Source of the DNA: Hyphomonadaceae bacterium
GTDB lineage: Bacteria; Pseudomonadota; Alphaproteobacteria; Caulobacterales; Hyphomonadaceae
Assembly: GCA_947474455.1 (NCBI GenBank)
Contig: CANJIL010000003.1
Span: 1 to 64,000, forward strand
DNA length: 64,000 nt
Direction of reading: 5' to 3'
Both the position numbers and the translations under genes were made by a program. Within the stretch, counting starts at the first letter, position 1; each line of letters opens with the position of its first letter. Under the pieces are notes generated by a model. It worked only from the letters and a program-made list of their open reading frames with translations, was not told the origin of the DNA and did no database searches. Shown here piece after piece: positions 9,972 to 54,402 of this stretch.

Positions 9972-10663
9972 CTGGAAATGCGGTCAGCGAACCGCGCATC
10001 GGGCTTCTGCCGGTTCAGCACCACGCCGCCAACACGTCCTCCATGCGCCTCGATCTCGCGCCGCGCCGCATCCACATCAATAGGCGAAGTCTCGTCCGCC
10101 TTCACAACGATCACAGTCCGGTCCATTTGCGAGGTGATCGCAAGACCTGCCCTTGCCAGCTCCAACGCCGGCGCATCGACCACCGCCCAGTCCGTCGCCG
10201 CCCGCACTGCCTGCCAGTAAGCCGGCTGCATCTTGATCCGGACGCCGTGGCCGGTCTTCAGCCGGCTCGCATCGAACTGCGTGACCATCAGCCGCGTGTC
10301 GCCTACGCGGTGCGCCGTGAAAAGCCCCAGCCCCTGCGTGGCTTCAAGCAGCTCCGGCTCCACCGAGAAGAAGGGCTGCGTCTTCAGCGAGGCCGAGTAA
10401 GGCGGTCCGACGCCGCCGAACGTCTCGGCGAACGGCCCCACGGCAAAGGTATTGAACAAATGGTTGCGCTTGAGATCCAGGTCCACCAGCCAAACCGGCT
10501 TGCGCGCCTGTTCCGCCGCCAGCAGCGCGAACGCCGTCGCAACGCTGGATGCGCCCTCGCCAGACCGCGACGAGATAAACATCACGGTGCGCCCGCCCTC
10601 GGTCGCTGGGGTCTGCGACAACGCGCGATAAAGCTCCTTCAACTCCCCACGCAGATCCCTCAT
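9968..10663 (-). CDS. hfsB: CpsD/CapB-like ATPase (HfsB-like) with degenerate P-loop
   Basis: MRDLRGELKELYRAL...VMFISSRSGEGASSVATAFALLAAEQARKPVWLVDLDL; overlaps the HfsA stop. Confidence 0.75.
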   Translation of the reverse strand: MRDLRGELKELYRALSQTPATEGGRTVMFISSRSGEGASSVATAFALLAAEQARKPVWLVDLDLKRNHLFNTFAVGPFAETFGGVGPPYSASLKTQPFFSVEPELLEATQGLGLFTAHRVGDTRLMVTQFDASRLKTGHGVRIKMQPAYWQAVRAATDWAVVDAPALELARAGLAITSQMDRTVIVVKADETSPIDVDAARREIEAHGGRVGGVVLNRQKPDARFADRISR

Positions 10664-12162
10664 GGCGAACGGTCGCCCGCCGCCGCCAGCACCCGCAGGT
10701 TCAGCGTCCGTTCGAGGGAATTCGCCGTCGCAAAACTCGACACCGACCATGCCCGCAGCAGCCCGATCGCAAGCGCCGTCAGCAGGCCGAAGATCGCCGC
10801 CGCGATCGCAATCATCCGCTTGGTGCTGTCGCCCCGCGTCGGCGGCCGCGCCGCCTCATAGACCGAAATGTTGTCGACGCTGCGCGAGGCCAGCTCGCTG
10901 CGCACCCGCTCCGTCTGCTCGCGCGTTGCAAACGTCCCCGCAGACGTCTCCAGCGCGTCGCGATCCCGCTTCATCCGCAGGTATTCCGGCTCCAGCCCTG
11001 CCAGCGCCGCAATCCGCGCCTCCGCCTCGCGCTTCTGTCCTGCCAGCGCCGCCGAACGCCCCGTCAGCGCGCTGATATTGGCCGTCTGCACCGCACGATC
11101 CGCCTCCAGCGCCTGCCAGGTCGGGTTCGGTCCGATCCGCCGCAGACCCTGCGCCGGCGCCGACTTCAGGAAGCCCTCCAGCTGCGCGATTCTGCGATCG
11201 ATATCCTGCACCACGCGGCTGTCCGGCAGATACCGCGCTAGCAGATCCTGCCGCTCCATCCGTAGCTTCACGAGATCCTGCTCCGACGTCGTCTCGACAT
11301 AGAGATCGACATCCTTCGCCGTCCCGGCCATCTGCCGCGTCAGCCCCGCCGACTTCGCCTCGGCCTCCCGCAAGGAAGCCTCGACCTTCGCCAGCTCATC
11401 GGAAATGTCCGAGAACAGCTTCTTCGCTGCCGCCGTCTCCACATCGAAATCCGAAAGCCCATGCTGCTTCAGGAAATTCTGCAACGCCTTGTCCGACGTC
11501 GCCAGCCGTTCCTCGATCACGCCCCGCTGCTCGGTCAGTCCCGCGGCGCCCTTGCCAGACAAAACCTCCTGCCGGTACTTCAGATATTCCGTCACAAACC
11601 TGTTCAGCGTCGCCGCCGCAAGCGCCGGGTCCTCATGCGCAAACGTCATCCGCAGTATCGACGATTTCGGCGCCGAGGACACATCGAAGTCCGCCGCGAA
11701 TGCCTCAAGCGCTTCCTGATCCACTTCATACGTCGCACCATCGCGCGCGCGCAGCTTCGCCTCGGCAAACTCCGGATAGATCCGCGAGAGCCCGATGCCC
11801 GCGATCACACGCTCGGCAATCACCGGCGAGCGAGCCAGCTCCGTCTCAGCCTGCAGAACTTCTTCCTGTTGCGGAAAGGCGCCCTTGGCCGCATCGCCGA
11901 TCACCGGATCAAAGACATACTCCTGCCCCAGCCGCACCAGCAGCCGCGTGTTCGCCGAATACTTGGTCGGAGCCAGCAGCGCGATCCCGATCCCAACGAG
12001 CAGGATCGGAAAGAAGACAAGAAACATCAGCCACTTGGCGCGCCACAGTTGAAGCAACGTATCAGCCAGGCCGAGCTTCGGACGCAGTCTTGCAACACGC
12101 GTTGGCGCGCGCAGCGCAGATGCGCCGGCAGAAGTGCGCTCGGTCCAGGTCTCGACGCTCAA
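10660..12162 (-). CDS. hfsA: Wzz/GumC-type polysaccharide chain-length/co-polymerase protein (HfsA-like)
   Basis: Two terminal TMs flanking a long coiled-coil; YSANTRLLVRLGQEYVFDP; N-terminal Wzz domain. Confidence 0.82.
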   Translation of the reverse strand: MSVETWTERTSAGASALRAPTRVARLRPKLGLADTLLQLWRAKWLMFLVFFPILLVGIGIALLAPTKYSANTRLLVRLGQEYVFDPVIGDAAKGAFPQQEEVLQAETELARSPVIAERVIAGIGLSRIYPEFAEAKLRARDGATYEVDQEALEAFAADFDVSSAPKSSILRMTFAHEDPALAAATLNRFVTEYLKYRQEVLSGKGAAGLTEQRGVIEERLATSDKALQNFLKQHGLSDFDVETAAAKKLFSDISDELAKVEASLREAEAKSAGLTRQMAGTAKDVDLYVETTSEQDLVKLRMERQDLLARYLPDSRVVQDIDRRIAQLEGFLKSAPAQGLRRIGPNPTWQALEADRAVQTANISALTGRSAALAGQKREAEARIAALAGLEPEYLRMKRDRDALETSAGTFATREQTERVRSELASRSVDNISVYEAARPPTRGDSTKRMIAIAAAIFGLLTALAIGLLRAWSVSSFATANSLERTLNLRVLAAAGDRSP

Positions 12163-41529: not shown

Positions 41530-43821
41530 CTATTTGTCGTGGTAATACTTTGCGTAAGCCTTGTAGTTCGCGCTCGTGTAGGCATGGTGGCCGCGTTTGC
41601 GCAGGTCCACGAAGGTGAGCACGACGCCTGCGACGTTGGCGTGGAAGTCGCGCAGGATCTTCATCGTCTCGCGCAGCGTGCCGCGATGCGTCTTGCGCCA
41701 GCGCGTCGCCACAACCACCTGGTCGACCTTGGACGTCACGACGCGCGTTTCCGCCATCAGCAGGATTGGGCCGGTGTCAATGATGATCAGGTCATAGGTC
41801 TGCTGCAGCATGTTGAGCAGAGCGTCGAAGGCGCGGCTGCCGAAGACGTCGCGCGGCGTGTGCTTGCGGTCGGTCAGCGGCAGGATATGAAGGCCGGTCT
41901 GTTCGTCGGTCTGCACGGCGTCCGCAAGGCGGGCTTCGCCGAACAGGTATTCCAGTAGGCCCGCTTCGGCTTTCACGCCCGACACTTCGGTGAGCTGGCG
42001 CAGGCGGATGTCGCCGTCGATCACGATCGTCTTGGTGCCTGACATGGCAGCCATGCGGCCGAGGCAGAAACTCATGCTCGTCTTGCCTTCGCTGGGCAGC
42101 GAGGAGACGACCGCCACGGTCTTCGCGGCCTTGTCGATGTCCGCGAACATGACGGAGGCGCGCAGGTGGCGGTAAGCTTCGGCAAATCCTGAGTGCGGCT
42201 TGTCTATGAGGTATTCCGCGGGTTTCACTTTCGCCTTGGTGAAGTTGCCGGCGGGGTGCAGCAGCGGGATCTGGCCGATGAACGGCACACCCGCGACCTG
42301 CTCGACTTCTTCCGGGGACGACATGTAGTTGTCGAGCAACTCCATGACGAGCCCTGCAAGGCCGGCCAATGCCAGGCCAAGCATGAAGCCCAGTATCAGG
42401 TTGAGTTGGGTGTTGGGGAAGCTGGGCGCGTCGGGGGTCGGAGCATAGCTATCGATGACGGCGTCAGCATCGGTGATGCCTTCGAGTTCGCTTGTTTCCT
42501 TGAACCGGTTGTTGAACTCGTCGAACAGCGTGCGGGTCGCCTGGGCGTCGCGCTCAAGCGCGGACTGCTCGACGCCAGCGCGGTTGTTCTGCGCAAGCTC
42601 GCCCTTGGCGCGGTTGAGGCTGCCCTGCAGGCTGCTGACCCGTTCACGCGAGATCAGGACTTCCTGTTCGAGCGATGAAGCAATGCGCTGCAGTTCGGCA
42701 TCGATCTGGCGCGCGTTGTCAGCCTCTTCGGCCATGACTTTCTGATACTCGGGGTGGCGCACGTCGTAGCGGCGCGTGACGTCGGCCTTGCGTGCGGACA
42801 GGGCTGTCTGCGCCGAGCGCAGGTTGCCGATGGCGGCCGAGTTCTGCGCTTCCGCGATGGTGTCGATGCCGCGGTTGGCGCGCATCTGCTCGTTCATGTT
42901 GCGCAGGCGGGCGCTCTTGGCGGCGTATTCGGACTGCGCCTGCGTGAGCTCCGTGTTAATATCGCGAATGGTCTGCTCAGTAAGCGTCACGTCGCCGCTG
43001 CGCAGCAGGCCGGTCGAGGCTCGGTGGGCTTCAACCTTGCCTTCGGCGTCGCGCAGTTCTTCACGCAGGACAGACAGGCGTTCGTTCAGCCATTCCTGGG
43101 CGCGTTTCGTCGCCTGGAATTTCGTTTCGAGCTGGTTGTCGAGATAAACTTCCGCCAGCGTATTCGCGAGCGTGGCGGCCATCTTGGGCGAGCCGCTCGA
43201 TGCGTTGATCTCGATGATGAAGGTGATGCCGAGACGGTTCACTTTGATGCGTTCGCGCACGCCATCGATGATGCCGTCCAGCAAGTTGCGCTCGGCTTCA
43301 ATCGCTTCAGGCGAGCCCGGCGGCGGCGGCGGCGCTACGGCCTCTCCCTTGCCGAAGGGCAGAAGTCCCTTAATGAAGGATTTGACCTGTTCGATGCGAA
43401 CAGCCGTCTCGGTGGGCTTAGCAAGGCTCGAGTTGAACTCGGGGTTTTTCACGAGGTCGAGACGCTTGACGACCTTCTCGATCAGCGAACGGCTACGCAG
43501 GACTTCGGCCTCGGTGTCGAGCATCCCCGTGTTGGCTGGCATGCCTGAGAGGACGGCGCCGATGTCGACGACCTTCGTATCGCGCGTGTTGACGATGACG
43601 CGCGAGGTCGCGGTGTAGGACGGCTGCAGCTGCGAGGCGTAAATCGCGACTGCGGCGAAGGTCAGCACGAATACGGCCGCCATCGGTCCGAGGCGGCGGC
43701 GCACGGCGCGCACGATCCGCTGGATGCTGATGACGTTATCGCCCTCGCCTGTGGAGGACGGCAAGGGCGTTGCTCCGCGCGGATAGCCCGAAGTCACATC
43801 GAGGGGATAGACCTTATTCAA
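41530..43821 (-). CDS. Wzc-type exopolysaccharide co-polymerase / BY-kinase
   Basis: Wzz N-domain; VVSSLPSEGKTSMSFCLG Walker A; IVIDGDIRLRQL; C-terminal Tyr cluster YTSANYKAYAKYYHDK. Confidence 0.92.
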   Translation of the reverse strand: MNKVYPLDVTSGYPRGATPLPSSTGEGDNVISIQRIVRAVRRRLGPMAAVFVLTFAAVAIYASQLQPSYTATSRVIVNTRDTKVVDIGAVLSGMPANTGMLDTEAEVLRSRSLIEKVVKRLDLVKNPEFNSSLAKPTETAVRIEQVKSFIKGLLPFGKGEAVAPPPPPGSPEAIEAERNLLDGIIDGVRERIKVNRLGITFIIEINASSGSPKMAATLANTLAEVYLDNQLETKFQATKRAQEWLNERLSVLREELRDAEGKVEAHRASTGLLRSGDVTLTEQTIRDINTELTQAQSEYAAKSARLRNMNEQMRANRGIDTIAEAQNSAAIGNLRSAQTALSARKADVTRRYDVRHPEYQKVMAEEADNARQIDAELQRIASSLEQEVLISRERVSSLQGSLNRAKGELAQNNRAGVEQSALERDAQATRTLFDEFNNRFKETSELEGITDADAVIDSYAPTPDAPSFPNTQLNLILGFMLGLALAGLAGLVMELLDNYMSSPEEVEQVAGVPFIGQIPLLHPAGNFTKAKVKPAEYLIDKPHSGFAEAYRHLRASVMFADIDKAAKTVAVVSSLPSEGKTSMSFCLGRMAAMSGTKTIVIDGDIRLRQLTEVSGVKAEAGLLEYLFGEARLADAVQTDEQTGLHILPLTDRKHTPRDVFGSRAFDALLNMLQQTYDLIIIDTGPILLMAETRVVTSKVDQVVVATRWRKTHRGTLRETMKILRDFHANVAGVVLTFVDLRKRGHHAYTSANYKAYAKYYHDK

Positions 43822-43865: not shown

Positions 43866-45122
43866 TTAGGGGAAGAGTTTCAGCCCAATATTGAAGATGT
43901 TCTGGTCGAGATCGCCCGCGATCGAAGGAGCGCCCGTCGTCTCGCGCGAATGCATCTGATAGCCGACTTCGATGTGGGCGTGCTTGTTCAGCTTGTAAGC
44001 AGCGCCAAGGAGAACATCGGTGAAGTCGTCCTTGCGTTTGAAGACCGGGAAACTGGGAGAGGCGTTGAAGTCGTAGGAGCCCATCCCAACCTCGCCAAAC
44101 AGCAGCACGTTGCGCAGCAGCTCGTGATCGACACGCACCGAATAACGATCGGTGTTGGCCGACAGCGATTCCGGAATGCCCGGATCAGTAATGCCGGCAA
44201 AGCCGCGGAACGACACCGTGGTGAGCTGGGTCGGGAACCACAGCAACAGCCCATCGAAGCTGAAAAACTGCACATCATCCAGGCCGGCCAAGTCCCGGTT
44301 GTCCGTAACCTGGCCCGCAGAGATTTCGCCGCGGAATGGCGCGGACAGCTCGAAGTTCACGCCGACACGCAGATTGGTCAGCGTGCTGTTGCGGATAGCC
44401 GCATCCTGCTCATAGTTGCGATCCGTCTGACGCACGTCGCCGAAGACTGCGATGTCGGGGGAAATCGCGTAGGAAAGACGCCCGCCGAGGAAGTTCTCGG
44501 TCGCGTTGCGCTGGGAATAGAAATACTTGTAGTTGTTGTCGCGCGTACCGGCCTGACCGAGCAGCGCCAAGCGATCGGATCTGAACGTGGCGCCCACTTC
44601 GGCGCCAATATACCTGTTCTGTGCGGGCTCGGGCGCGCCTTGGCTGGACGGCTCATAACGCGACTCGGTCAGCTGGCCGGCGCTGGCGTTGCCGGTGAGC
44701 TGGAAATTGCGGGTCGCATCTAGGCGGCCGTCTGCGAAAATATTGTAGTCCCTCGTCGTCTCGCTGCTCTCGCTCGAGTATTCGCGGTGATCGACGGAGG
44801 CGCCGGCCCTGAGCGCGTGAACGGACCAGGTCGAGCGCGCTTCGACCTGTGACCGTGCCCGGATGATCGTGTCGTCCACCTCGTTGGTGAATTGGGCATA
44901 GACGTTGTCGTTGAGCTCCCCGGAAAGACCCAGGCTGGAGATGATGTCAAAGCCGCTGGTGCGCATGGGTTCCGGATCGAATTCCGGCTGGCCGCGCTCG
45001 GTCACGGCCACGTGCCTTCCGCGGATGAAAGGATTGTCCTGCGCTGACGCAATTGGCGCGAAGACGCCCGCAGCGGCGCATGTCAGGAGGAGATGTTTCA
45101 GACCGAGCTTCATGTCACTCAC
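43866..45122 (-). CDS. Outer-membrane beta-barrel protein of EPS locus
   Basis: Signal peptide; repeated amphipathic strands (VRVDHELLRNVLLFGEVGMGSYDF...), C-terminal FNIGLKLFP. Confidence 0.8.
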   Translation of the reverse strand: MSDMKLGLKHLLLTCAAAGVFAPIASAQDNPFIRGRHVAVTERGQPEFDPEPMRTSGFDIISSLGLSGELNDNVYAQFTNEVDDTIIRARSQVEARSTWSVHALRAGASVDHREYSSESSETTRDYNIFADGRLDATRNFQLTGNASAGQLTESRYEPSSQGAPEPAQNRYIGAEVGATFRSDRLALLGQAGTRDNNYKYFYSQRNATENFLGGRLSYAISPDIAVFGDVRQTDRNYEQDAAIRNSTLTNLRVGVNFELSAPFRGEISAGQVTDNRDLAGLDDVQFFSFDGLLLWFPTQLTTVSFRGFAGITDPGIPESLSANTDRYSVRVDHELLRNVLLFGEVGMGSYDFNASPSFPVFKRKDDFTDVLLGAAYKLNKHAHIEVGYQMHSRETTGAPSIAGDLDQNIFNIGLKLFP

Positions 45123-45243: not shown

Positions 45244-45673
45244 TCAGGGGCCGCCCATTCTCCCCTTCGTCATGTGGCGGGGCGGAGGCCCCACATCGAA
45301 TTTCAGACTGCCAGCCTTCCGGTCGGCTTCAGCGAGCGTCTTCTCCACCAGCGACCGGGCAGAATTGACCGCCGTTTCTTCCGGCTTCGGCTCTGGAATT
45401 ATCATATAGGTCGCGGCAAGCTCCCGGGCAGCTTCCCGCATCGGCGCACATCGCGCCTCGTCGGCGGCAATACCATTCAATGCTGTACCGATCACGTTGT
45501 CAGTCGCCTCAAGCTTCTTGATGTTGAATACAAAATCTTCCTTGGCATTGGAGCCGAAGCAACGGACGCCTTCGGTCAGCGGACCCGCGAGATCGGCATC
45601 CTGTGCAAAGGCGACCGGCGCGAGCGCAGCCAGGCCGATTGTAACCACGACAAAGCGAACAGACCATTTCACG
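45244..45673 (-). CDS. Small secreted hypothetical protein (GTG start preferred; longer ORF to 45732)
   Basis: VKWSVRFVVVTIGLAALAPVAFAQ signal peptide, GGAGAGG upstream; two conserved-looking Cys. Confidence 0.6.
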
Positions 45674-45777
45674 TGAGCCAATTGCCTCTCCGGTTTACCA
45701 ACAAGGTGGGGCCAGTGGTTCAAGAAGCTCATCCGCCAGAGTGTTCAAACAGCCCGGCCGTGCCTGAAAGGATTGGC

Positions 45778-46362
45778 CTAGAAGAAACGTTCGCGAACCC
45801 GGATCGTGTCGCCAGGCCGCACAACCGTCGTTGGCGTCAGCTCGACTTCGCGTTCGTTAGGGCTGTCCGAGCTTTTGATCAGGATGCGGCCGCGGTCGGC
45901 GCGATAGGTGAAATCGCCTGCGCTTGCGATCGCGTTCATCACAGTAAGGCCCGAGACGAAGGGGAACTCGCCCGGTCGGTTCACTTCGCCGAGAATGTAA
46001 TAGGGACGGCCCTTTGCCAGTTCGGTGCTGACCTTCGGTTCTTTGAGCCAGCCCTCCTTGAGTCTTGTTTCGAGAAGGCGGCTTGTGTCGGTCAACGAAA
46101 GGTTGACGACTTCAACCTGGCCGATCAGCGACATCGAGATCGCGCCTTGCCCGTCTACCACGAAGGAGCCGGAGAGATCAGGCTCGCCATAAACCGTGAC
46201 CTTCACCTCGTCGCCCGTGCCAAGCTTGTAGCCGGCGATACCCGTCCCGGTTTGGGCCAGCTCCTGAGGATTGCCCTGGGCGGGACCCGTAGCACAGGCG
46301 GTCAGCGCCAATGCACCCGCGCCCACGATCGCCAGAACGACCTTCTTGAGCGGATTCATCAT
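45778..46362 (-). CDS. Polysaccharide export protein (Wza/GumB-like OPX lipoprotein)
   Basis: LTACATG lipobox; YKLGTGDEVKVTVYGEPDLSGSFVVDGQGAISMSLIG; YYILGEVNRPGEFPF. Confidence 0.9.
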   Translation of the reverse strand: MMNPLKKVVLAIVGAGALALTACATGPAQGNPQELAQTGTGIAGYKLGTGDEVKVTVYGEPDLSGSFVVDGQGAISMSLIGQVEVVNLSLTDTSRLLETRLKEGWLKEPKVSTELAKGRPYYILGEVNRPGEFPFVSGLTVMNAIASAGDFTYRADRGRILIKSSDSPNEREVELTPTTVVRPGDTIRVRERFF

Positions 46363-46369
46363 GTTGCTC

Positions 46370-47425
46370 CTAAGAACCATTGCCCGCCGCCGCCGGCTCG
46401 ACTCGCGGGCCGGTTGAAATGAACTCGACGCCGTCATGCTCAAATCGGGCCGCGGTGAGACGGCCGCTGAGATAGGCGCCTGTATCGACCCCGATGCGCC
46501 GGGAATCCCGGTAAGGCCTGGTCGCTGGGGTGTGGCCATGAACGATCACGGCGCCCAGAGGCCTGCGGTCATCGAGGAAGTCTTCTCGGATCCAGAGTAG
46601 GTCGTATTCGGTCTGCTGGTCGAGCGGCACGCCCGGGCGCACGCCAGCATGCACAAAGACATAATCTCCGATGCGAACGCTGAGATCGAGGTTCGACAGA
46701 AAATGAAAATGCTCGGGCGGCAGCACTTCGTTAAGCGCTTCGGACGCGGCCGCCCATTCCTCTGCCGAGGTCCGTGTCCGGGGCGGGCGCACGCCATAGG
46801 ACACGAGTGTTTCCGCGCCGCCGAACTCCGCCCACCGCGGCCCGATCGACGGGTCCGTGAGGAATTGCAGCATGGCTGCTTCGTGGTTCCCCTTCAGGAA
46901 ATATGTTTCGAAGGGAGACATGGTGTCACCCAACAGGACATCAATCACATCCTTCGACTTGAAGCCGCGATCAATGTAGTCACCGAGGAAGACCAGGATC
47001 GGACGGCCTTCAAAGCCGCCTCGCGCCACGTCCTCATGAAGGTCCTGCATCAGCTGCACGAGGAGATCGGCCCGGCCGTGAATGTCGCCAACTGCATAAA
47101 CGCGCCTGCCCGTCGGAACGAGCGCAGGGGGCCCAGGGATATGAACTTGCTTGGTTACCGCAGGCGCAGGTTCGCCGCCAAAAATACGCACAAGTCCGCG
47201 TCTCAGCGGCCCAAGCACATTGCTGGTCGCTTGTGCGAGGCCAGACACTGCCTCGCCGATTTTCGGCTGCGGAATTGACAACCCGAACTCCTGTTTCGGT
47301 CCGGCGCCTGCAACAGGCGCGACGAACGGGTTACGCAACAGGCGAGCCACGCCTCCAAGCGTTCCCCGCACAAGCGTGCCGCGAGGGCCCGACGCCAGCA
47401 GCCCTGTGGCAGGCTCGCACGGCAT
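46370..47425 (-). CDS. Metallophosphoesterase (Ser/Thr protein phosphatase-like)
   Basis: VGDIHGRADLLVQLM; FLGDYIDRGFKSKDVIDVLL; FLKGNHEAAML; VHGHTPATRPY. Confidence 0.88.
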   Translation of the reverse strand: MPCEPATGLLASGPRGTLVRGTLGGVARLLRNPFVAPVAGAGPKQEFGLSIPQPKIGEAVSGLAQATSNVLGPLRRGLVRIFGGEPAPAVTKQVHIPGPPALVPTGRRVYAVGDIHGRADLLVQLMQDLHEDVARGGFEGRPILVFLGDYIDRGFKSKDVIDVLLGDTMSPFETYFLKGNHEAAMLQFLTDPSIGPRWAEFGGAETLVSYGVRPPRTRTSAEEWAAASEALNEVLPPEHFHFLSNLDLSVRIGDYVFVHAGVRPGVPLDQQTEYDLLWIREDFLDDRRPLGAVIVHGHTPATRPYRDSRRIGVDTGAYLSGRLTAARFEHDGVEFISTGPRVEPAAAGNGS

Positions 47426-47578
47426 ATCCCACGTTCATTGTGTCACCTTGTGCCCGCCACGGTCCACAGCAAAAGGCGTTCAACTATGGCGTGCATGGTT
47501 AATGCAGTTGCATGATACCGGGCTGGGCCCCGATGCGCAGTGCCGGATCAGAGGCCCGACCCTTGCAGGTTTTCGTGC

Positions 47579-48775
47579 ATGACGCGTGTTGCTTTCTTCG
47601 GTCATGACGCCGCCGACGCCGCTGTTCGTCGGCGTGTACAAGGATTCCGTGATGACGGGCTCGAGGTGACCGGCTTCACCATGCGCCGCCGCGATGACGT
47701 TGTCGTGGAATGGGAAAATGTCGATCTCGGCCGCACTTACGACGGCGCCTATCGCCAGCGGATACGGTCGATCTTCGCTGGGGCCAGGCGGGCGGCGGCC
47801 CAGCGGGACCTGCTGGCCAAGAGCGACGTAATCTACGCCCGCAACCTCGATATGCTGGCCATCGCCTTTCTCGCCAAGCTCCTTGCCGGGCTCAAGACGC
47901 CGGTCGTCTACGAGGCGCTCGACGTTCATAGATTGTTGACCAGAAGAGACCTGATCGGCCTGACGCTTCGGCGCATCGAAGGCATGCTGCTGAAGCGCAC
48001 CAAACGATTGGTGGTTTCTTCACCAGGGTTTCTGAACAATTACTTCGCCGTTTATCATCGGGGCCAGTATCGCGCCTGCCTGATCGAGAACCGGTTGGCG
48101 GCGGGCGCTGACTATGGCCAGCGCCCTGCCCGCAACGCCGCGTTCAGGGTCGCAGATCCGCTGTCGATCGGCTGGATTGGCCGGCTGCGCTGCATCCGCA
48201 GTCTGAGTCTTCTCATGGATCTCGCGCGCGAATTTGGTCCTCAGGTGCGTATCGTGATGCATGGGATCGCCTCACCGCAAGAAATCCCCGACTTCAACGA
48301 ACGCATCCAGGGGCTCGCTAACGTGGAATTCCACGGCCGCTATCGCGCACCGGAGGACCTTTCACGCATTTACGACAGCCTCGATCTGGTCTGGGCGGGC
48401 GACTTCATGGAGGCAGGCTATAATTCGGTCTGGCTGCTGCCCAATCGCATCTACGAGGGAGGTTACTACGCCGTTCCTTCCATAGCGCCGGAAGACACGC
48501 AAACGGCGAAATGGATTAACGCCCGCGCCGCCGGATTTACGGTTTCCGAGGATCTCGCCACCACGTTGCCGGGACTCATCCGTACCCTGATCGCCGACCG
48601 CGGCTCCATTGCGGTGAAGCGCTCTCACCTGCTGGATCTTCCGGAAAGCACGTTCGTCGCGCCGCACGGCGAACTTGCCGCCCTGATCTCGGATGTAACT
48701 CAACAGGCCAGTACGAACGAGAAAGCTCGTCTGACTCCCTTCACCACACGCGAGGCGCGAAAGCCCGCCGAGTAA
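47579..48775 (+). CDS. Glycosyltransferase (GT-B-like)
   Basis: LSIGWIGRLRCIRSLSLLMDLAREFGPQVRIVMHGIAS...YDSLDLVWAGDFMEAGYNSVWLLPNRIYEGGYYAVPSIA. Confidence 0.78.
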   Translation: MTRVAFFGHDAADAAVRRRVQGFRDDGLEVTGFTMRRRDDVVVEWENVDLGRTYDGAYRQRIRSIFAGARRAAAQRDLLAKSDVIYARNLDMLAIAFLAKLLAGLKTPVVYEALDVHRLLTRRDLIGLTLRRIEGMLLKRTKRLVVSSPGFLNNYFAVYHRGQYRACLIENRLAAGADYGQRPARNAAFRVADPLSIGWIGRLRCIRSLSLLMDLAREFGPQVRIVMHGIASPQEIPDFNERIQGLANVEFHGRYRAPEDLSRIYDSLDLVWAGDFMEAGYNSVWLLPNRIYEGGYYAVPSIAPEDTQTAKWINARAAGFTVSEDLATTLPGLIRTLIADRGSIAVKRSHLLDLPESTFVAPHGELAALISDVTQQASTNEKARLTPFTTREARKPAE

Positions 48776-48817: not shown

Positions 48818-50245
48818 TTGCTCGCCATAAAAATGGACTCGTCCTTGCGTAGACCTACTGTTCCACCGGGGATCGAGGCGGTCGGCATGAAACAAACTCC
48901 TGCGCAGGCGGCAATGGGATGGGGCCAGTCGCGCTCCGAGCCCACGCGACCTGTTCGCGTTCGCCTTCGCGACGTCATTCCGCCGCTGGCGGCGGTCGTC
49001 GTGCTCACACTCGCTCACCTTGCCTTCGGCGCGGTCCAGCCAATTGCGGCGTTGCCGCTTTCTGCAATGTTCACCATCATTGCGATAGCCGCGATTTTCG
49101 CCGCCGGACCACGTCACATCACCATCGGTATGCTTGGCGGCGCCGGCGCGATCGCAGTATTTGGCGTGACCGGCCTCGCCGGCCCGCTCTACAGGTCCGC
49201 TCCGCAACTCGCGGTTCTCTTCGCCGCCGGCGCACTCTGGTCGATCGGCTATGTCGCGTCGCGTCATCGTCGCGCGCTGGACATTGCATGGACCGCGCAG
49301 ATGTGGGGCGCCATCATCTATTGCGCGTGGATGTTCACGCTGAACGTATCCGCCATTCCCTCTGGCGTGAACGCAATCACCGAAGCTTTTGAAACGCCGG
49401 CAAACGCGTCGGTGCTGTTCGGTCTTTTCGCCATCGTCGGAATGAGCAAAATTCTCCAGATTATCAAACGCATGGATGCGGATGCGCTGGCGCGCTCGCG
49501 GATGATCGAAGAGCTATTGCGCAATGGACTCGCGCCGATCCTGCTGGTCGGCCTTTCGTTCACGTGCCTCATGATTGTCGGCTCGCGGCCCGGCATTCTT
49601 CTCACGCTTGCCGTGCTCGTCGCGCTTTCATGGTGGGACATGTTGGCGATCGCGACACGCGAGCATCGCGGCATCCTCATGCGGCTCGCCGCGATCGTTG
49701 CGCCCTTCGCTGCAGTTGGACTTGCCGTGTGGGGCGTCAGCCTCGCCTGGATTCGCGATGAGACCATCGCGCCTGGCCTTGGCGGCTCCGACATCATGCC
49801 GAACGTGCAGCGCCTTCAGGCGTATATGAGCGTGTGGATGGAAAGCCCCGCGATCGGTCATGGCCTTGGCTCGATCGGCGCTGAAGGCGACAAGACGATG
49901 ACGCTCTTCAATGCGAAGGCGATGCTGGCGCCGGGAGAAGCTCACAACGTTTTCGTCACATGGCTTGTCGAGGCTGGCGTCGTTGGAATCGCTCTATTGG
50001 TCCTTGCAATAGCTACGATGTACGCGAACATCTTCGTATCATTGAGATCACGAAGCACGCCGCGTACATTGCCGCGTCTCGCCATCGCGGCCGGCGCGCT
50101 GATGCTTCTCCACGGAACAACGGATTCCTCTCTCGACCTGCCCAGCGCTGTTTGGCTGTTCGCCTTGATCCTCGGCGCCGCATGCGGCGTCGCCAGCGGG
50201 CGCCAGGTCGAGCCGCGTGACAATGAGAAAGAACGGGAAGCCTGA
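48818..50245 (+). CDS. O-antigen ligase/polymerase family membrane protein
   Basis: Multi-TM; SRPGILLTLAVLVALS; GLGSIGAEGDK...GEAHNVFVTWLVEAGVVGIALLVLAI. Confidence 0.82.
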   Translation: MLAIKMDSSLRRPTVPPGIEAVGMKQTPAQAAMGWGQSRSEPTRPVRVRLRDVIPPLAAVVVLTLAHLAFGAVQPIAALPLSAMFTIIAIAAIFAAGPRHITIGMLGGAGAIAVFGVTGLAGPLYRSAPQLAVLFAAGALWSIGYVASRHRRALDIAWTAQMWGAIIYCAWMFTLNVSAIPSGVNAITEAFETPANASVLFGLFAIVGMSKILQIIKRMDADALARSRMIEELLRNGLAPILLVGLSFTCLMIVGSRPGILLTLAVLVALSWWDMLAIATREHRGILMRLAAIVAPFAAVGLAVWGVSLAWIRDETIAPGLGGSDIMPNVQRLQAYMSVWMESPAIGHGLGSIGAEGDKTMTLFNAKAMLAPGEAHNVFVTWLVEAGVVGIALLVLAIATMYANIFVSLRSRSTPRTLPRLAIAAGALMLLHGTTDSSLDLPSAVWLFALILGAACGVASGRQVEPRDNEKEREA

Positions 50246-50253
50246 CGCCGGCG

Positions 50254-51118
50254 CTGACGGTCGCCATTGCAAATCTCAAAGGCGGCGTTGGCAGATCGAC
50301 CACCAGTGTGATGCTGGCAGACAGCCTGACGCACTGCAACGGCATGAACGTGCTGGTCACCAATCTACCCGCAAGCGAACTCCAGCCAGAGGCTTTGACG
50401 GAACGTCGGCGTGCAGGATGCCACGGACCAGGGCAAGGCCGTGCATCACGTGCTCGCCGGCTTAAAGGAAGGCAAGCCACCGTAAGCGGCGCCTTGCATC
50501 ATCCCCAATGCCGTCTCGCTGGAGGAGTTGCACCGCACGAAGGGGCTGGAGGAGCGGCAAGGCTGGATCGCCGGCCTTGCCTCGCCGCCGCAGCCGCGCT
50601 TGTGCGAGCAAGTTCTGGAAGAGGACTGGTATTCGCGCTCGGGCGCGCGGCCGACGCTATCGGACGCCCTCGCCATTTTCCTGCGCCAGGCTTTTGATCC
50701 CCTGCCGCCGATCTACGACATCATCGTGCTGGATTGCCCGTCCCATCTTTCGCCGCTTGCGCGCGCTCGCCTATCGCTGGCGAGCGCCTACGATAGCCGA
50801 CCCGGTTTCGAACTGGGAACGAAACAGCTTTCCGGTCGGGTCGGGAAATTCATCGCCCCCGATCTGCCCAACCGCAACTTCGTGCTGATCACGCGTTTCC
50901 GCGACACAAAGTATGCCTACGCCGTCGCTTCCGCGTGTGCAAAATCTATCTGAAGGACCGCGGGTTTGGCCCGATACGTCCCGCATGCGTTCACGTTTTG
51001 CATTCCATCGATCGCGCGGCGCCAGACAGCTACGATACTTTTCTCGGCAATATGTCGGCGTGACCAACGACGTCCGCTGCCTGGCCGGCCCTTCAGCGAC
51101 TTCATGAACCAATACACC
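50254..51118 (+). pseudogene. Decayed ParA/MinD-like ATPase
   Basis: LTVAIANLKGGVGRSTTSVMLADSL (Walker Lys->Arg) / LPPIYDIIVLDCPSHLSPLARARLSLA / FIAPDLPNRNFVLITRFRDTKYA / FGPIRPACVHVLHSIDRAAPDSYDTFLGN in several frames. Confidence 0.7.
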
Positions 51119-51126
51119 GGTGCAAC

Positions 51127-51480
51127 ATGGACGAGAAGTTGGGACTGACACCGGTCGAATGTCTCGATCGCTACGTCCGTGAACTTCGCGCCGAAGTGCG
51201 CGCCAACCCGAAATTTGCCGACGGGCTGGTGAAGGCGCTCGGCGGAACTGTCGTCTTCGACGAGGGGCTCGTTCAGAGATCGCCAATGCCTCCGCGTTCG
51301 CGACTGGATCGAAAGCCAGATTCTTTTCTGTTTTCAACTCGATGGAACTCGGCGAGATCACGAAGATCCTGATAGAAAACAATCTCGCTATTCGCGTGGA
51401 CATGAATGGCAAGTCGGCAGCCAGCTGGTCGCCGTGATGCTTGAGCGCGCCATGACGAAGGTGCAGGAACGCAGGAGCCC
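51127..51480 (+). pseudogene. Decayed small (about 120 aa) partner of the ParA-like ATPase
   Basis: MDEKLGLTPVECLDRYVRELRAEVRANPKFADGLVKALGGTVVFDEGL / KARFFSVFNSMELGEITKILIENNLAIRVDMNGKSA / LERAMTKVQERRSPI across three frames. Confidence 0.6.
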
Positions 51481-51511
51481 GATTTCTAGGTTTGTCGCAG
51501 GCGAGCGACGG

Positions 51512-52567
51512 CTACAGACGCTGGCCCTTCAGGATCTGGCGGAAGAAGCCCGCCGACCACGACATGTGCATCGTCGCCGACGCAGGTCCGGCCATCAGGC
51601 CGCAGAGCGAGGCGTATCGCACCGTCACCAGCAGTGAAGCCGCGGCGAGCGCCGCCAGATAGATTCCAGGCAGCAGCAGGCCCCACGCGTTGAACGGCGC
51701 AATCACAAAGCCGAGCACGCAGGCCGCAAGCGTTGCCGGGGGAATCAGCTGGCGTAGCCTGGGCTTCTCGCCGTGCTTCATCAGCGTGCGGGCCCTGCCC
51801 TTGCCATAGTTGAAGTACTGGCGCGCCAGCGACCGCATTGTCGCGCGCGGCAGGTAGACGAGGCGGATATCAGCATCGAGGAAGATCTGACCACCGGCCT
51901 CAACCAGCCGCGTGTCGAACTCTGCGTCCTCATTGTGCGAGAACGTCTCGTCATATCCACCGACCTGCAGGAACGACTTCAGATCGAACCCGGCGTGGTG
52001 GCCGTGATTGACATACATGGACTTGCGTCCGCCCCGATGCGCCGATCCGCCAGAACCCAGCGGCGTATCCACGATCCAGGCGTTAGCTTTCTGGAAGCAG
52101 GTCTTGCCGACGGCGTCCATTGGCACGACCACAGACGCGACGCCGCGCGAGCCCAGCGCGTCGGCCACCTTCATCACATAGTTGGCCGGATAGATCGCAT
52201 GAGCATCGCAGCGCACCATTATGCGCCTGGCAGGCGCCGCCTCGCGTGCGGCAAGGTTAACGGCGGCCGACTGCAGCCGCTTTGAATTGTTAATGAGGCG
52301 AAGGTTGGGAAACTCGTCGCGCAGCTCCTCCACGATCACGCGCGTCCTGTCAGTGCTTCCGCCATCGGCGACAACGACTTCAGTGTCGCGTAGGCGCACA
52401 TCGCCCGTCATCAGCGACCGCAGGCAAGCTTCAATGTGGGCTTCTTCGTTAAGCACCGGGACAACGACGAGCACATCGGCGCCAGCGATCATCCGGGCTG
52501 GCGGGGTGTTAACCGTTCGCAACTCAACGAACGGCGCATCGAGGACGAGGGTCATCTTCATCGCCAT
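51512..52567 (-). CDS. Glycosyltransferase family 2 (ExoA-like)
   Basis: VLVVVPVLNEEAHIEACLRSLMTGDVRLRDTEVVVADGGSTDRT; HNEDAEFDTRLVEAGG; C-terminal TMs. Confidence 0.87.
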   Translation of the reverse strand: MAMKMTLVLDAPFVELRTVNTPPARMIAGADVLVVVPVLNEEAHIEACLRSLMTGDVRLRDTEVVVADGGSTDRTRVIVEELRDEFPNLRLINNSKRLQSAAVNLAAREAAPARRIMVRCDAHAIYPANYVMKVADALGSRGVASVVVPMDAVGKTCFQKANAWIVDTPLGSGGSAHRGGRKSMYVNHGHHAGFDLKSFLQVGGYDETFSHNEDAEFDTRLVEAGGQIFLDADIRLVYLPRATMRSLARQYFNYGKGRARTLMKHGEKPRLRQLIPPATLAACVLGFVIAPFNAWGLLLPGIYLAALAAASLLVTVRYASLCGLMAGPASATMHMSWSAGFFRQILKGQRL

Positions 52568-52595: not shown

Positions 52596-53345
52596 TCAAG
52601 TCGTTTGCGCGGCCTTCGCGGCCTTGGATTGTGGCGCGGGACCGATATCCCAGGTCCGCGCCGGAGTGTTTACCGCCGCGCGGTAAGCGTCGAACGGAAT
52701 GCCGCTCTGGCGCGCCTTGATACGCATCTCGGCAAGGAATTCCGCATTGGATCCGATCCAGCGCAGCAGGTCCGCATGCTCGAAGGCGCGGCGCCGCAAG
52801 GGTTCGGGGACCGAGGCCCAGTTGGAAAGCACGAAGTTGAGCCGCCAGCCGATCAATTCCTCGCTGCACAGCGGGCAAGCATCCATGGACTTCGTCAGGG
52901 CGTCGAGAGCGGCCGAGTTAACCTTGCCAGATGCGCGTTTTGTTTCGAGATAGGCGAGCGTCGCCCAGGCCGACGCGCGCGAAGGATCGAGTTGTGTCGC
53001 GCGTTTGGCGGCGACATAGGCCGAGCCAGTATCCACCACCGGTATCCGCAAGCCGAGTTCGGAGAGGGTCTCAACGTAGTCCGGCGACGCGGAATGTGAC
53101 CAATCCTGCTCCAGCGCCCGCGCAGCAGCGGCATCGTCGGCCTGCAGCAGCATCAGGGTCTCGGCTTCCTGGAGCGTGAAATGCGAGAGTGGCGCGATCA
53201 CCGCAACGCCGCCGGCCATAAGCCCGATCCATGCGAAATAACCACCCGCGCGCTTCGCCCGCGATTTCTCGCGCGGAGGCCTGGCGCCGACGACGACGAC
53301 TGGGCCCTTCGCCACAAGCGGGTTGAAGGATGTTGAATCGGCCAT
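52596..53345 (-). CDS. Single-TM protein with TPR-like region, hypothetical
   Basis: One TM (YFAWIGLMAGGVAVIAPL) followed by helical SAYVAAKRATQLDPSRASAWATLAYLETKR. Confidence 0.65.
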   Translation of the reverse strand: MADSTSFNPLVAKGPVVVVGARPPREKSRAKRAGGYFAWIGLMAGGVAVIAPLSHFTLQEAETLMLLQADDAAAARALEQDWSHSASPDYVETLSELGLRIPVVDTGSAYVAAKRATQLDPSRASAWATLAYLETKRASGKVNSAALDALTKSMDACPLCSEELIGWRLNFVLSNWASVPEPLRRRAFEHADLLRWIGSNAEFLAEMRIKARQSGIPFDAYRAAVNTPARTWDIGPAPQSKAAKAAQTT

Positions 53346-53472
53346 AACTGCCAGTTTCCTTATTGAAGCCTAGCGCCCGAACGTGGCCGGGATCACCGGT
53401 CCTCGCCTGATGCGTGTTGCTATTCGCCCGGCTGGGGTAGGCGCGCCGTGTTCTGTGTTATACGCGCAACGC

Positions 53473-54402
53473 TCACGCACTCGCCTCTCCGTAGAGTTCG
53501 AGCGGCGCCTTGCCGAGCGCTGCCCCCATGACTCCGGCATGAAAGCGCGAGCGCACGGCGGACCTGCGCCAACGCGCTGGCGACCAGAAGGTGAGTCCAG
53601 CGATCGCGAGCGAAAAACCCATCTTTGCCAGCGAGATGGCGACCAGCATAACCTTCTGTTTACCGTTGCGAAGTTTGACCAGGCCCCAGGTCTGACCGGA
53701 GCGATACGCGCGTGTTTTGAGCCATTTTAGGCTCGACCGCGCCGGCGGGATCGGCTCGTCAACGATCGCGTCATCCGCGTAAACCATCGCGACGCCGGTG
53801 CGCTGCAGCTGAGTGAAGAAAGTCGTGTCTTCACCGCCGCTGCGGCCGAACGCTGGATCGAAGCGAAGCGCGCCGACAGCGTCGCGGCGCATAAGAACGT
53901 TGCATGTGTATCCGCCTGCTATCGTGCCATTGTGGATGGGCGGCGGCGTTGAATGCATGTCGGCCGCCGGCATCCAGGCCGGCGCGTCCTGCGGATAAAC
54001 GGCTTCAACTTTTCCGAACACCACGCCGGCCTGTGTCGCCTCCCGACGTGCGATCAACCGGGCTAGCCAGTCCGGTCGTGCTGTTTCATCGTCATCAATA
54101 AAGGCGACCAGCGGCGCCGTGGCCGCGTTCAGGCAAGCGTTGCGCGCGATCGAAATGTTTCGGGCCGGGGCGTGAACATACCGGCCTTCCAGGCCCTGCG
54201 CCGCAAAAGCCTGCTCCACCACGCCGCGCGCAGACGGCGTATCGTCATTGTCGGCGACGATCACCCGCATCCGCCAGCCAGGCGTTTCCAACTTCGCCAG
54301 CGAGGCGAGCAGATCGGCAATGGAGGCGCGGCGGAAGGTGCAGACGCACACATCCACGTCGCGTTCGGCCACTGGGTTAACGCTGGAATCCGGCATGCGC
54401 AC
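53473..54402 (-). CDS. Glycosyltransferase family 2
   Basis: VDVCVCTFRRASIADLLASLAKLETPGWRMRVIVADNDDTPSARG; LVAFIDDDETARPDWLARL; GRSGGEDTTFFTQLQ. Confidence 0.88.
   Translation of the reverse strand: MRMPDSSVNPVAERDVDVCVCTFRRASIADLLASLAKLETPGWRMRVIVADNDDTPSARGVVEQAFAAQGLEGRYVHAPARNISIARNACLNAATAPLVAFIDDDETARPDWLARLIARREATQAGVVFGKVEAVYPQDAPAWMPAADMHSTPPPIHNGTIAGGYTCNVLMRRDAVGALRFDPAFGRSGGEDTTFFTQLQRTGVAMVYADDAIVDEPIPPARSSLKWLKTRAYRSGQTWGLVKLRNGKQKVMLVAISLAKMGFSLAIAGLTFWSPARWRRSAVRSRFHAGVMGAALGKAPLELYGEASA

Follow-up and report, generated by a model that had tools for sequence, protein, structure and literature searches.

The window analysed here, a stretch of 64,000 nucleotides from a Hyphomonadaceae bacterium, carries the remains of a gene for a ParA-like ATPase followed by those of a small gene, both within a locus for exopolysaccharide (EPS) synthesis and export. 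An earlier note, made from the sequence alone, described them as the fossil of an uncharacterised two-gene cassette. This raises the question whether the two genes strayed into the locus as a mobile or partition cassette or belong to it, and what such an ATPase might do for an EPS machine.

A decayed gene pair behind the Wzy polymerase gene

The decayed ATPase gene and the decayed partner gene of about 122 codons together span positions 50245-51489 of the plus strand (Table 1). The peptides from which the pair had been reconstructed are all encoded on this strand, in the order described and in shifting frames: KGGVGRSTT is read in the frame of 50263, YDIIVLDCPSHLSPLARA and NFVLITRFRDTKYA in the frame of 49901, the partner peptide that starts with MDEKLGLTPVECLDRYV begins at 51127, and FFSVFNSMELGEITKILIENNLAIRVDMNGKSA is read in the frame of 49902. 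The earlier description as a degraded, ordered pair holds, as the remnant can be aligned over its whole length with intact pairs (70-73% nucleotide identity) and the 22-nt overlap of the two genes persists. An intact ATPase used as query matched positions 50248-50418 (E = 2.9e-13) and profiles of the intact relatives matched two pieces of the partner (E = 2.5e-13 and 3.8e-9), so the similarity of the remnant is not due to chance.

Compared with the intact relatives, at least eight frameshifting deletions are distributed over the remnant pair, from 50366 to 51413. The ATPase remnant has lost its start codon (ATG to ACG) and the D-x-D motif, carries an in-frame TAA at 50483-50485 and retains its natural TGA stop at 51146-51148. 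Its catalytic Walker-A lysine is replaced by arginine; this arginine of the KGGVGR motif is a decay mutation, and all intact relatives read KGGVGK. The partner remnant is frameshifted and its normal stop is out of frame. Between the ATPase remnant and its closest intact copies the pairwise dN is 0.17-0.18, which is about 3-4 times the value of 0.04-0.06 found between intact copies, and the adjacent gene for a family-2 glycosyltransferase (GT2) has no comparable rise in dN. Several disabling lesions thus coincide with selection that is relaxed relative to the intact orthologues, and the window pair is a real, lineage-specific pseudogene pair. Sequencing or assembly error was considered as an explanation and ruled out because the lesions are too numerous; they are spread over both genes, and the relaxed selection is confined to them. 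A further EPS-type partner was looked for in the window's own genome and none was found; other ParA-like ATPases are encoded there.

The genes directly on both sides, wzy and the convergent GT2 gene, are intact, and GT2 delimits the junction on the far side whether or not a relative has the pair. Between the genes for the outer-membrane polysaccharide export (OPX) protein and the beta-barrel lies a small conserved ORF of 162 aa (45244-45732) that evolves fast, with 27-56% identity among relatives. The frames of the phosphoesterase and OPX genes, called from longest-ORF starts, overlap by about 170 nt, likewise in relatives, and OPX probably begins at a start codon downstream of the called one.

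Table 1. Positions in the window of the decayed pair and of the surrounding EPS genes.
Feature	Position	Strand	Remark
Wzz-type polysaccharide co-polymerase fused to AAA_31 domain, BY-kinase-like	41530..43821	-	
BBP2_2 outer-membrane beta-barrel, EPS locus	43866..45122	-	
Poly_export/SLBB (Wza/OPX) protein, EPS locus	45778..46539	-	
Calcineurin-like phosphoesterase, conserved locus neighbour	46370..47425	-	
Conserved locus protein, presumed glycosyltransferase, upstream of wzy	47540..48775	+	no Pfam match
Wzy-type polymerase (Wzy_C)	48818..50245	+	intact, directly upstream of the ATPase remnant
Decayed ParA/Soj/McdA-like ATPase gene	50245..51148	+	intact relatives about 304-308 codons
ATPase-stop/partner-start overlap, 22 nt	51127..51148	+	same length in nearly all intact pairs that are not split
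Decayed small partner gene	51127..51489 (end approximate)	+	intact relatives 119-125 codons
Family-2 glycosyltransferase (GT2)	51512..52567	-	intact, convergent
Conserved hypothetical	52596-53345	-	syntenic block 52596..54402
Second family-2 glycosyltransferase	53473-54402	-	syntenic block 52596..54402

Intact orthologues and repeated absence of the pair

An ATPase profile run against 84,980 species genomes recovered 33 ATPase loci at about 60-95% identity, that of the query's own genome included. All 33 are of Hyphomonadaceae type and belong to Hirschia, Henriciella, Hyphomonas sp. ih12, UBA7672 and other MAGs. Apart from the window genome, 22 of 60 relatives, all members of the same GTDB family, have the partner, and it accompanies the ATPase in every partner-positive relative checked. 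When the EPS partner was sought in a class-wide sample of 385 Alphaproteobacteria, only the window's own genome matched, so the partner is lineage-restricted.

In 28 of the 33 loci, genes for Wzy, Wzz/BY-kinase, OPX or the barrel are found no more than 10 kb from the ATPase gene. Of the other five, three have an adjoining GT2 gene (L057, L058, L060), one lies amid glycosyltransferase and sulfotransferase genes (L068) and one is on a short contig (L059). The usual gene order is co-polymerase/BY-kinase, barrel, OPX, phosphoesterase, presumed glycosyltransferase, wzy, ATPase, partner and a facing GT2. In L043-L053 and others, ATPase and partner occupy the interval from wzy/GT to GT2. The stop of wzy and the start of the ATPase gene overlap by 4 nt in four loci (L043, L044, L050, L051), and the ATPase/partner overlap of 22 nt recurs in nearly all unsplit intact pairs. 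At one Henriciella locus (L069) the ATPase gene is located between Wzy and a Polysacc_synt_3 (Wzx-type) flippase encoded on the other strand. Purifying selection in the relatives is strong, with w of 0.02-0.06 for the ATPase and 0.04-0.16 for the partner; Wzy dN/dS values that involve L049 were left aside as mis-framed.

The pair is a bicistron belonging to the Hyphomonadaceae EPS locus, and the window copy decayed in place; positions 50245-51489 are almost certainly what is left, at its original site, of a two-gene unit that is conserved in the Wzx/Wzy exopolysaccharide locus of the Hyphomonadaceae. Of the fossil cassette proposed earlier, the two-gene system stands, with intact pairs in hand, and the mobile element that arrived and died there does not, since the orthologues hold the same wzy/GT2 junction. 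The search for intact pairs and their contexts that the earlier note suggested found them in EPS loci, with a plasmid location only for more distant homologous pairs. That note had also considered that the intact homologues might be ordinary plasmid ParA/ParB, or that the partner might never occur together with the ATPase; neither is the case.

In three genomes of the same genus wzy and GT2 are adjacent with no pair between them, at a spacing of -4, 9 and 120 nt. On a GT2 tree whose root is not fixed, the rows without the pair, taken together with that of the decayed window copy, require four changes between intact and not intact, and the window row groups with two intact genomes. The simplest reading of this pattern is repeated loss from an ancestral state. 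With the root not fixed, the pairless group L142-L144 may never have possessed the pair. As the lineage apparently tolerates the loss, the pair seems to be accessory and not core to synthesis.

In Henriciella and allies (L062-L074, L079) the two genes are about 5-39 kb apart and both are usually kept. Most Henriciella have the partner about 5-11 kb from the ATPase and inside the EPS locus, and it was detected in 13 of the 14 genomes searched for it. It adjoins the co-polymerase/BY-kinase gene at a distance of 10.2-10.7 kb in L173, L174, L176 and L180 (Henriciella), adjoins phosphoesterase/OPX genes in L064-L066 and L079, and lies 21 and 39 kb from the ATPase in two other split genomes. In the genome of L068 the ATPase is present and no partner was detectable.

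The two proteins and their homologues

Across 36 intact ATPase sequences the residues K12, K17, D40, D42 and D164 are invariant, and the marks of the A/D ATPase superfamily, i.e., the deviant Walker A motif KGGxGK[ST], the D-x-D switch and the Walker B motif DCPP, are invariant or nearly so. The ATPase matches AAA_31 (5.1e-25), and its structural model (pLDDT 88) finds as best PDB folds ParA-ATP (8ray), Soj (2bej/6iub) and McdA (6nop, TM 0.68-0.79). A Soj/ParA/McdA-like fold is confidently predicted for the intact enzyme. Within NCBIfam it stays below every equivalog cut-off, scoring 66 bits against NF041546 (ParA_partition; cut-off 180), 38 bits against the BcsQ model TIGR03371 (cut-off 157.85) and 17.6 bits against TIGR01007 (cut-off 108); PF06564 is matched above its cut-off, but the best stretch spans residues 9-46 only. 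In line with the earlier note, the intact homologues are neither plasmid ParA/ParB nor a replication gene. Nucleoid-binding ParA proteins have conserved DNA-binding arginines, R195 and R224 in CcParA (PMC7229837). In the alignment of these canonical regions the EPS ATPase keeps the invariant arginine of the first (TRFR), and the PRN of the other reads PES, which makes nucleoid binding by this ATPase uncertain. An assignment as defence system was dismissed, as the PADLOC match covers only a 45-residue Walker-A stretch of PDC-M28B.

The partner, described earlier as a protein of about 120 aa, had no match in Pfam, NCBIfam, PHROGs, PADLOC, PDB sequences or PDB folds, and none of the ParB models matched it. 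Structure prediction yields an all-helical protein in two parts, with an N-terminal helix pair (YLDRFFDELRxEVRxNPxLAxRLVKALGG), a disordered linker and a C-terminal SAP-like helical bundle; pLDDT is 74 overall and mostly 84-91 in the bundle. Similarity to SAP itself is weak and seen in one paralogue of the partner (12 bits, E 0.16), far below the SAP cut-off. The ParA-binding peptides of ParB are short helices in which hydrophobic residues surround one positively charged residue (PMC12462528). The partner has such an N-terminal feature: YLDRFF/VIDKFL falls within a predicted helix of residues 9-26, with hydrophobic residues around one basic residue that is present in most of 25 sequences. Many ParA/MinD partners, McdB among them, have a positively charged N-terminus (PMC12204374); the first 40 residues of the EPS partner are not net basic, with a charge of +1 to -5 in the same number of sequences.

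Homologous pairs occur at other loci. The window's own genome contains an intact gorA-linked pair (G000:C11, L152:4947-6166) of a ParA-like ATPase of about 285 aa and a 122-aa partner; this type was matched in 19 of 61 genomes searched, is conserved in the family, and in some relatives has a gene for a 110-aa membrane protein upstream. A second type consists of a ParA fused to a wHTH domain and a partner of 124-156 aa; it is found on Rhizobiales plasmids, from Methylocystis and Rhizobium, and elsewhere among the Alphaproteobacteria. Loci examined for this type, with a SAP-like partner, are L162:6949-8471, L165:3908-5396, L157:5709-7138 and L164:4087-5393, among them Methylocystis iwaonis plasmids; on Caballeronia pNK81 the pair lacks the wHTH. 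On the Methylocystis iwaonis plasmid pSS37A-Re-4 the wHTH-ParA pair occurs together with repABC, a T4SS and a multiubiquitin/E2/ThiF cluster, and in the Rhizobium pRL1 region it adjoins helicase-like and methyltransferase-like genes. Profile comparison by hhalign aligned the partners over nearly their full length, giving E = 3.4e-7 for EPS versus wHTH, 1.9e-5 for EPS versus gorA and 8.9e-9 for wHTH versus gorA, exact values that need careful reading as the underlying alignments are shallow. The gorA-linked (L152) and plasmid (L157, L162, L165) types thus resemble the EPS pair in having a homologous partner with the ATPase directly upstream, but they lie at other loci, the plasmid type carries the wHTH extension, and the C-terminal motif of the partner is HHLDP or GMDPGKLV in these types, in contrast to NLATxVDMxGK in the EPS type.

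Two further arrangements were seen. In D6_Bin_7 (L082:9998-12429) the order is ParA, partner, second ParA, so that two different ATPases surround one partner. Another ParA-like group, which shares 36-40% identity with the EPS ATPase, comprises L075, L076, L077, L078 and L080 (around 10001-10930) from Hirschia and UBA5336-type genomes; it has no partner directly downstream, and its neighbours include an enoyl-ACP reductase-like gene (L075, L080) and a ribD-like gene (L077, L078).

Possible functions and relation to known systems

For ParA/MinD ATPases the genes nearby are commonly taken as the first hint of what the cargo is (PMC10241942). As the neighbours here are genes of the EPS export machine, the favoured model, to which we give an even chance, is that a ParA/MinD-type ATPase and its adaptor position the EPS machine or gate and time its activity. 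With ATP bound, the ATPase would form a dimer and associate with a surface, either the nucleoid or the inner membrane. The partner would bind it via the N-terminal helix (YLDRFF) and stimulate ATP hydrolysis or release, and its C-terminal helical domain would connect the ATPase to the EPS machine, i.e., Wzy/Wzx, the co-polymerase/BY-kinase or the OPX complex. The machine would thereby be positioned, or activated, at a particular place in the cell or point of the cell cycle. Physical interaction, cargo and positioning are what we infer from gene arrangement and predicted structure. The shared junction, the purifying selection, the motifs and predicted fold of the ATPase, the small two-part helical partner and the precedents of BcsQ, CpsD-ParB and the ParA-binding helices speak for this model. 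Against it stand the N-terminus of the partner, which is not net basic, the PES in place of PRN in the ATPase, and the partner model with its pLDDT of 74 and no PDB match. Positioning would also have to be dispensable, given that the locus persists in three genomes of the genus that have no pair.

An unlikely alternative is a module like BcsRQ, in which ATPase and partner would be stable subunits at the cytoplasmic face that activate or stabilise the EPS complex without positioning it. BcsQ is a MinD/ParA/Soj homologue encoded together with the small BcsR in the cellulose operon; it is essential and polar, binds synthase parts as well as BcsR and is required for secretion (PMC5727187). This precedent, the gene order with its tight linkage to wzy/wzx/wzz and the loss of the pair as a unit agree with such a module; however, the ATPase resembles Soj/McdA and falls well short of the BcsQ cut-off, and some genomes whose EPS loci are otherwise complete have no pair or a dead one.

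A regulatory pair, in which the ATPase and a DNA-binding SAP-like partner would tune EPS transcription, is a still more doubtful explanation. The MinD-like FleN acts with FleQ on EPS genes, the related plasmid ATPases have an N-terminal HTH-like region, one paralogue of the partner has a marginal SAP score, and a SAP-like bundle is predicted for the partner. Yet this score is far from the cut-off and no fold was matched, the partner bears little net positive charge, and the EPS-type ATPase has no HTH. A checkpoint that couples EPS production to chromosome segregation and does not place the machine, as in the CpsD-ParB link of capsule synthesis to the cell cycle, where CpsD binds ParB (PMC4574921), is very unlikely: the Soj-like predicted fold and the BY-kinase-like co-polymerase in the same locus are compatible with it, but the data contain no tie to ParB or replication, and the partner does not resemble ParB. 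That the pair is a dead ParA cassette of mobile or plasmid origin, or a partition system that inserted into the EPS locus, is hardly credible, as distant homologous pairs do reside on Methylocystis, Rhizobium and Caballeronia plasmids but the orthologues keep the same chromosomal position across genera, no ParB-like gene lies alongside, and chromosomal ParA/ParB are encoded elsewhere in the window's genome (L153). For the EPS type a plasmid or phage cassette is refuted by this synteny; a close ATPase copy was sought in plasmid and phage records, and the partner in plasmids and viral contigs (IMG/VR), and none was found.

Beyond positioning or timing in the EPS locus, the homologous pairs may represent an undescribed class of two-protein spatial organisers, a proposal that we rate at somewhat under even. 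The class would combine a Soj-type ATPase with its own family of SAP-like helical adaptors and would have radiated into at least three types, for the EPS machine, gorA-linked on the chromosome and wHTH-fused on plasmids or islands, with the EPS branch placing or gating the Wzx/Wzy export machine. If this is true, the Wzx/Wzy export machine would be a cargo that the literature cited here does not describe for ParA/Soj-type ATPases. An ATPase and adaptor encoded behind wzy and under strong purifying selection would offer a genetic handle on the placement of this machine in stalked and budding marine bacteria such as Hirschia. The adaptor family is absent from the libraries searched and accompanies several other ParA-like ATPases. 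As the window copy is dead, the interest lies in the intact system.

Compared with known systems, the EPS pair shares with McdA/McdB and other ParA/MinD ATPase-adaptor systems the Soj/McdA-fold ATPase with deviant Walker A, the small, poorly conserved partner gene alongside and the linkage to cargo genes. In contrast to McdA/McdB, these cargo genes are for Wzx/Wzy exopolysaccharide and not for a carboxysome/BMC, and the partner is without similarity to known partners in the libraries searched and without the net basic N-terminus, which places it outside McdAB. With ParABS and plasmid ParA (Soj, RepA, NF041546) the ATPase has fold and motifs in common, but its equivalog scores, a partner without ParB domain, a position away from replicon-maintenance loci and the apparent replacement of one conserved DNA-binding arginine region set it apart. 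The BY-kinases CpsD/Wzc are likewise P-loop ATPases of capsule loci with a ParA-like fold; however, the locus already contains a separate co-polymerase/BY-kinase gene, and the EPS ATPase is Soj-type with weak similarity to TIGR01007. BcsQ/BcsR resembles the pair as a MinD/ParA/Soj-family ATPase with a small partner in an exopolysaccharide operon, whereas the EPS ATPase is too weakly similar to TIGR03371 to be a BcsQ and its locus is Wzx/Wzy-type; a scan of locus genes revealed no cellulose synthase. By analogy, the pair most likely works like McdAB or BcsQ while being, by the tests made, a member of neither family.
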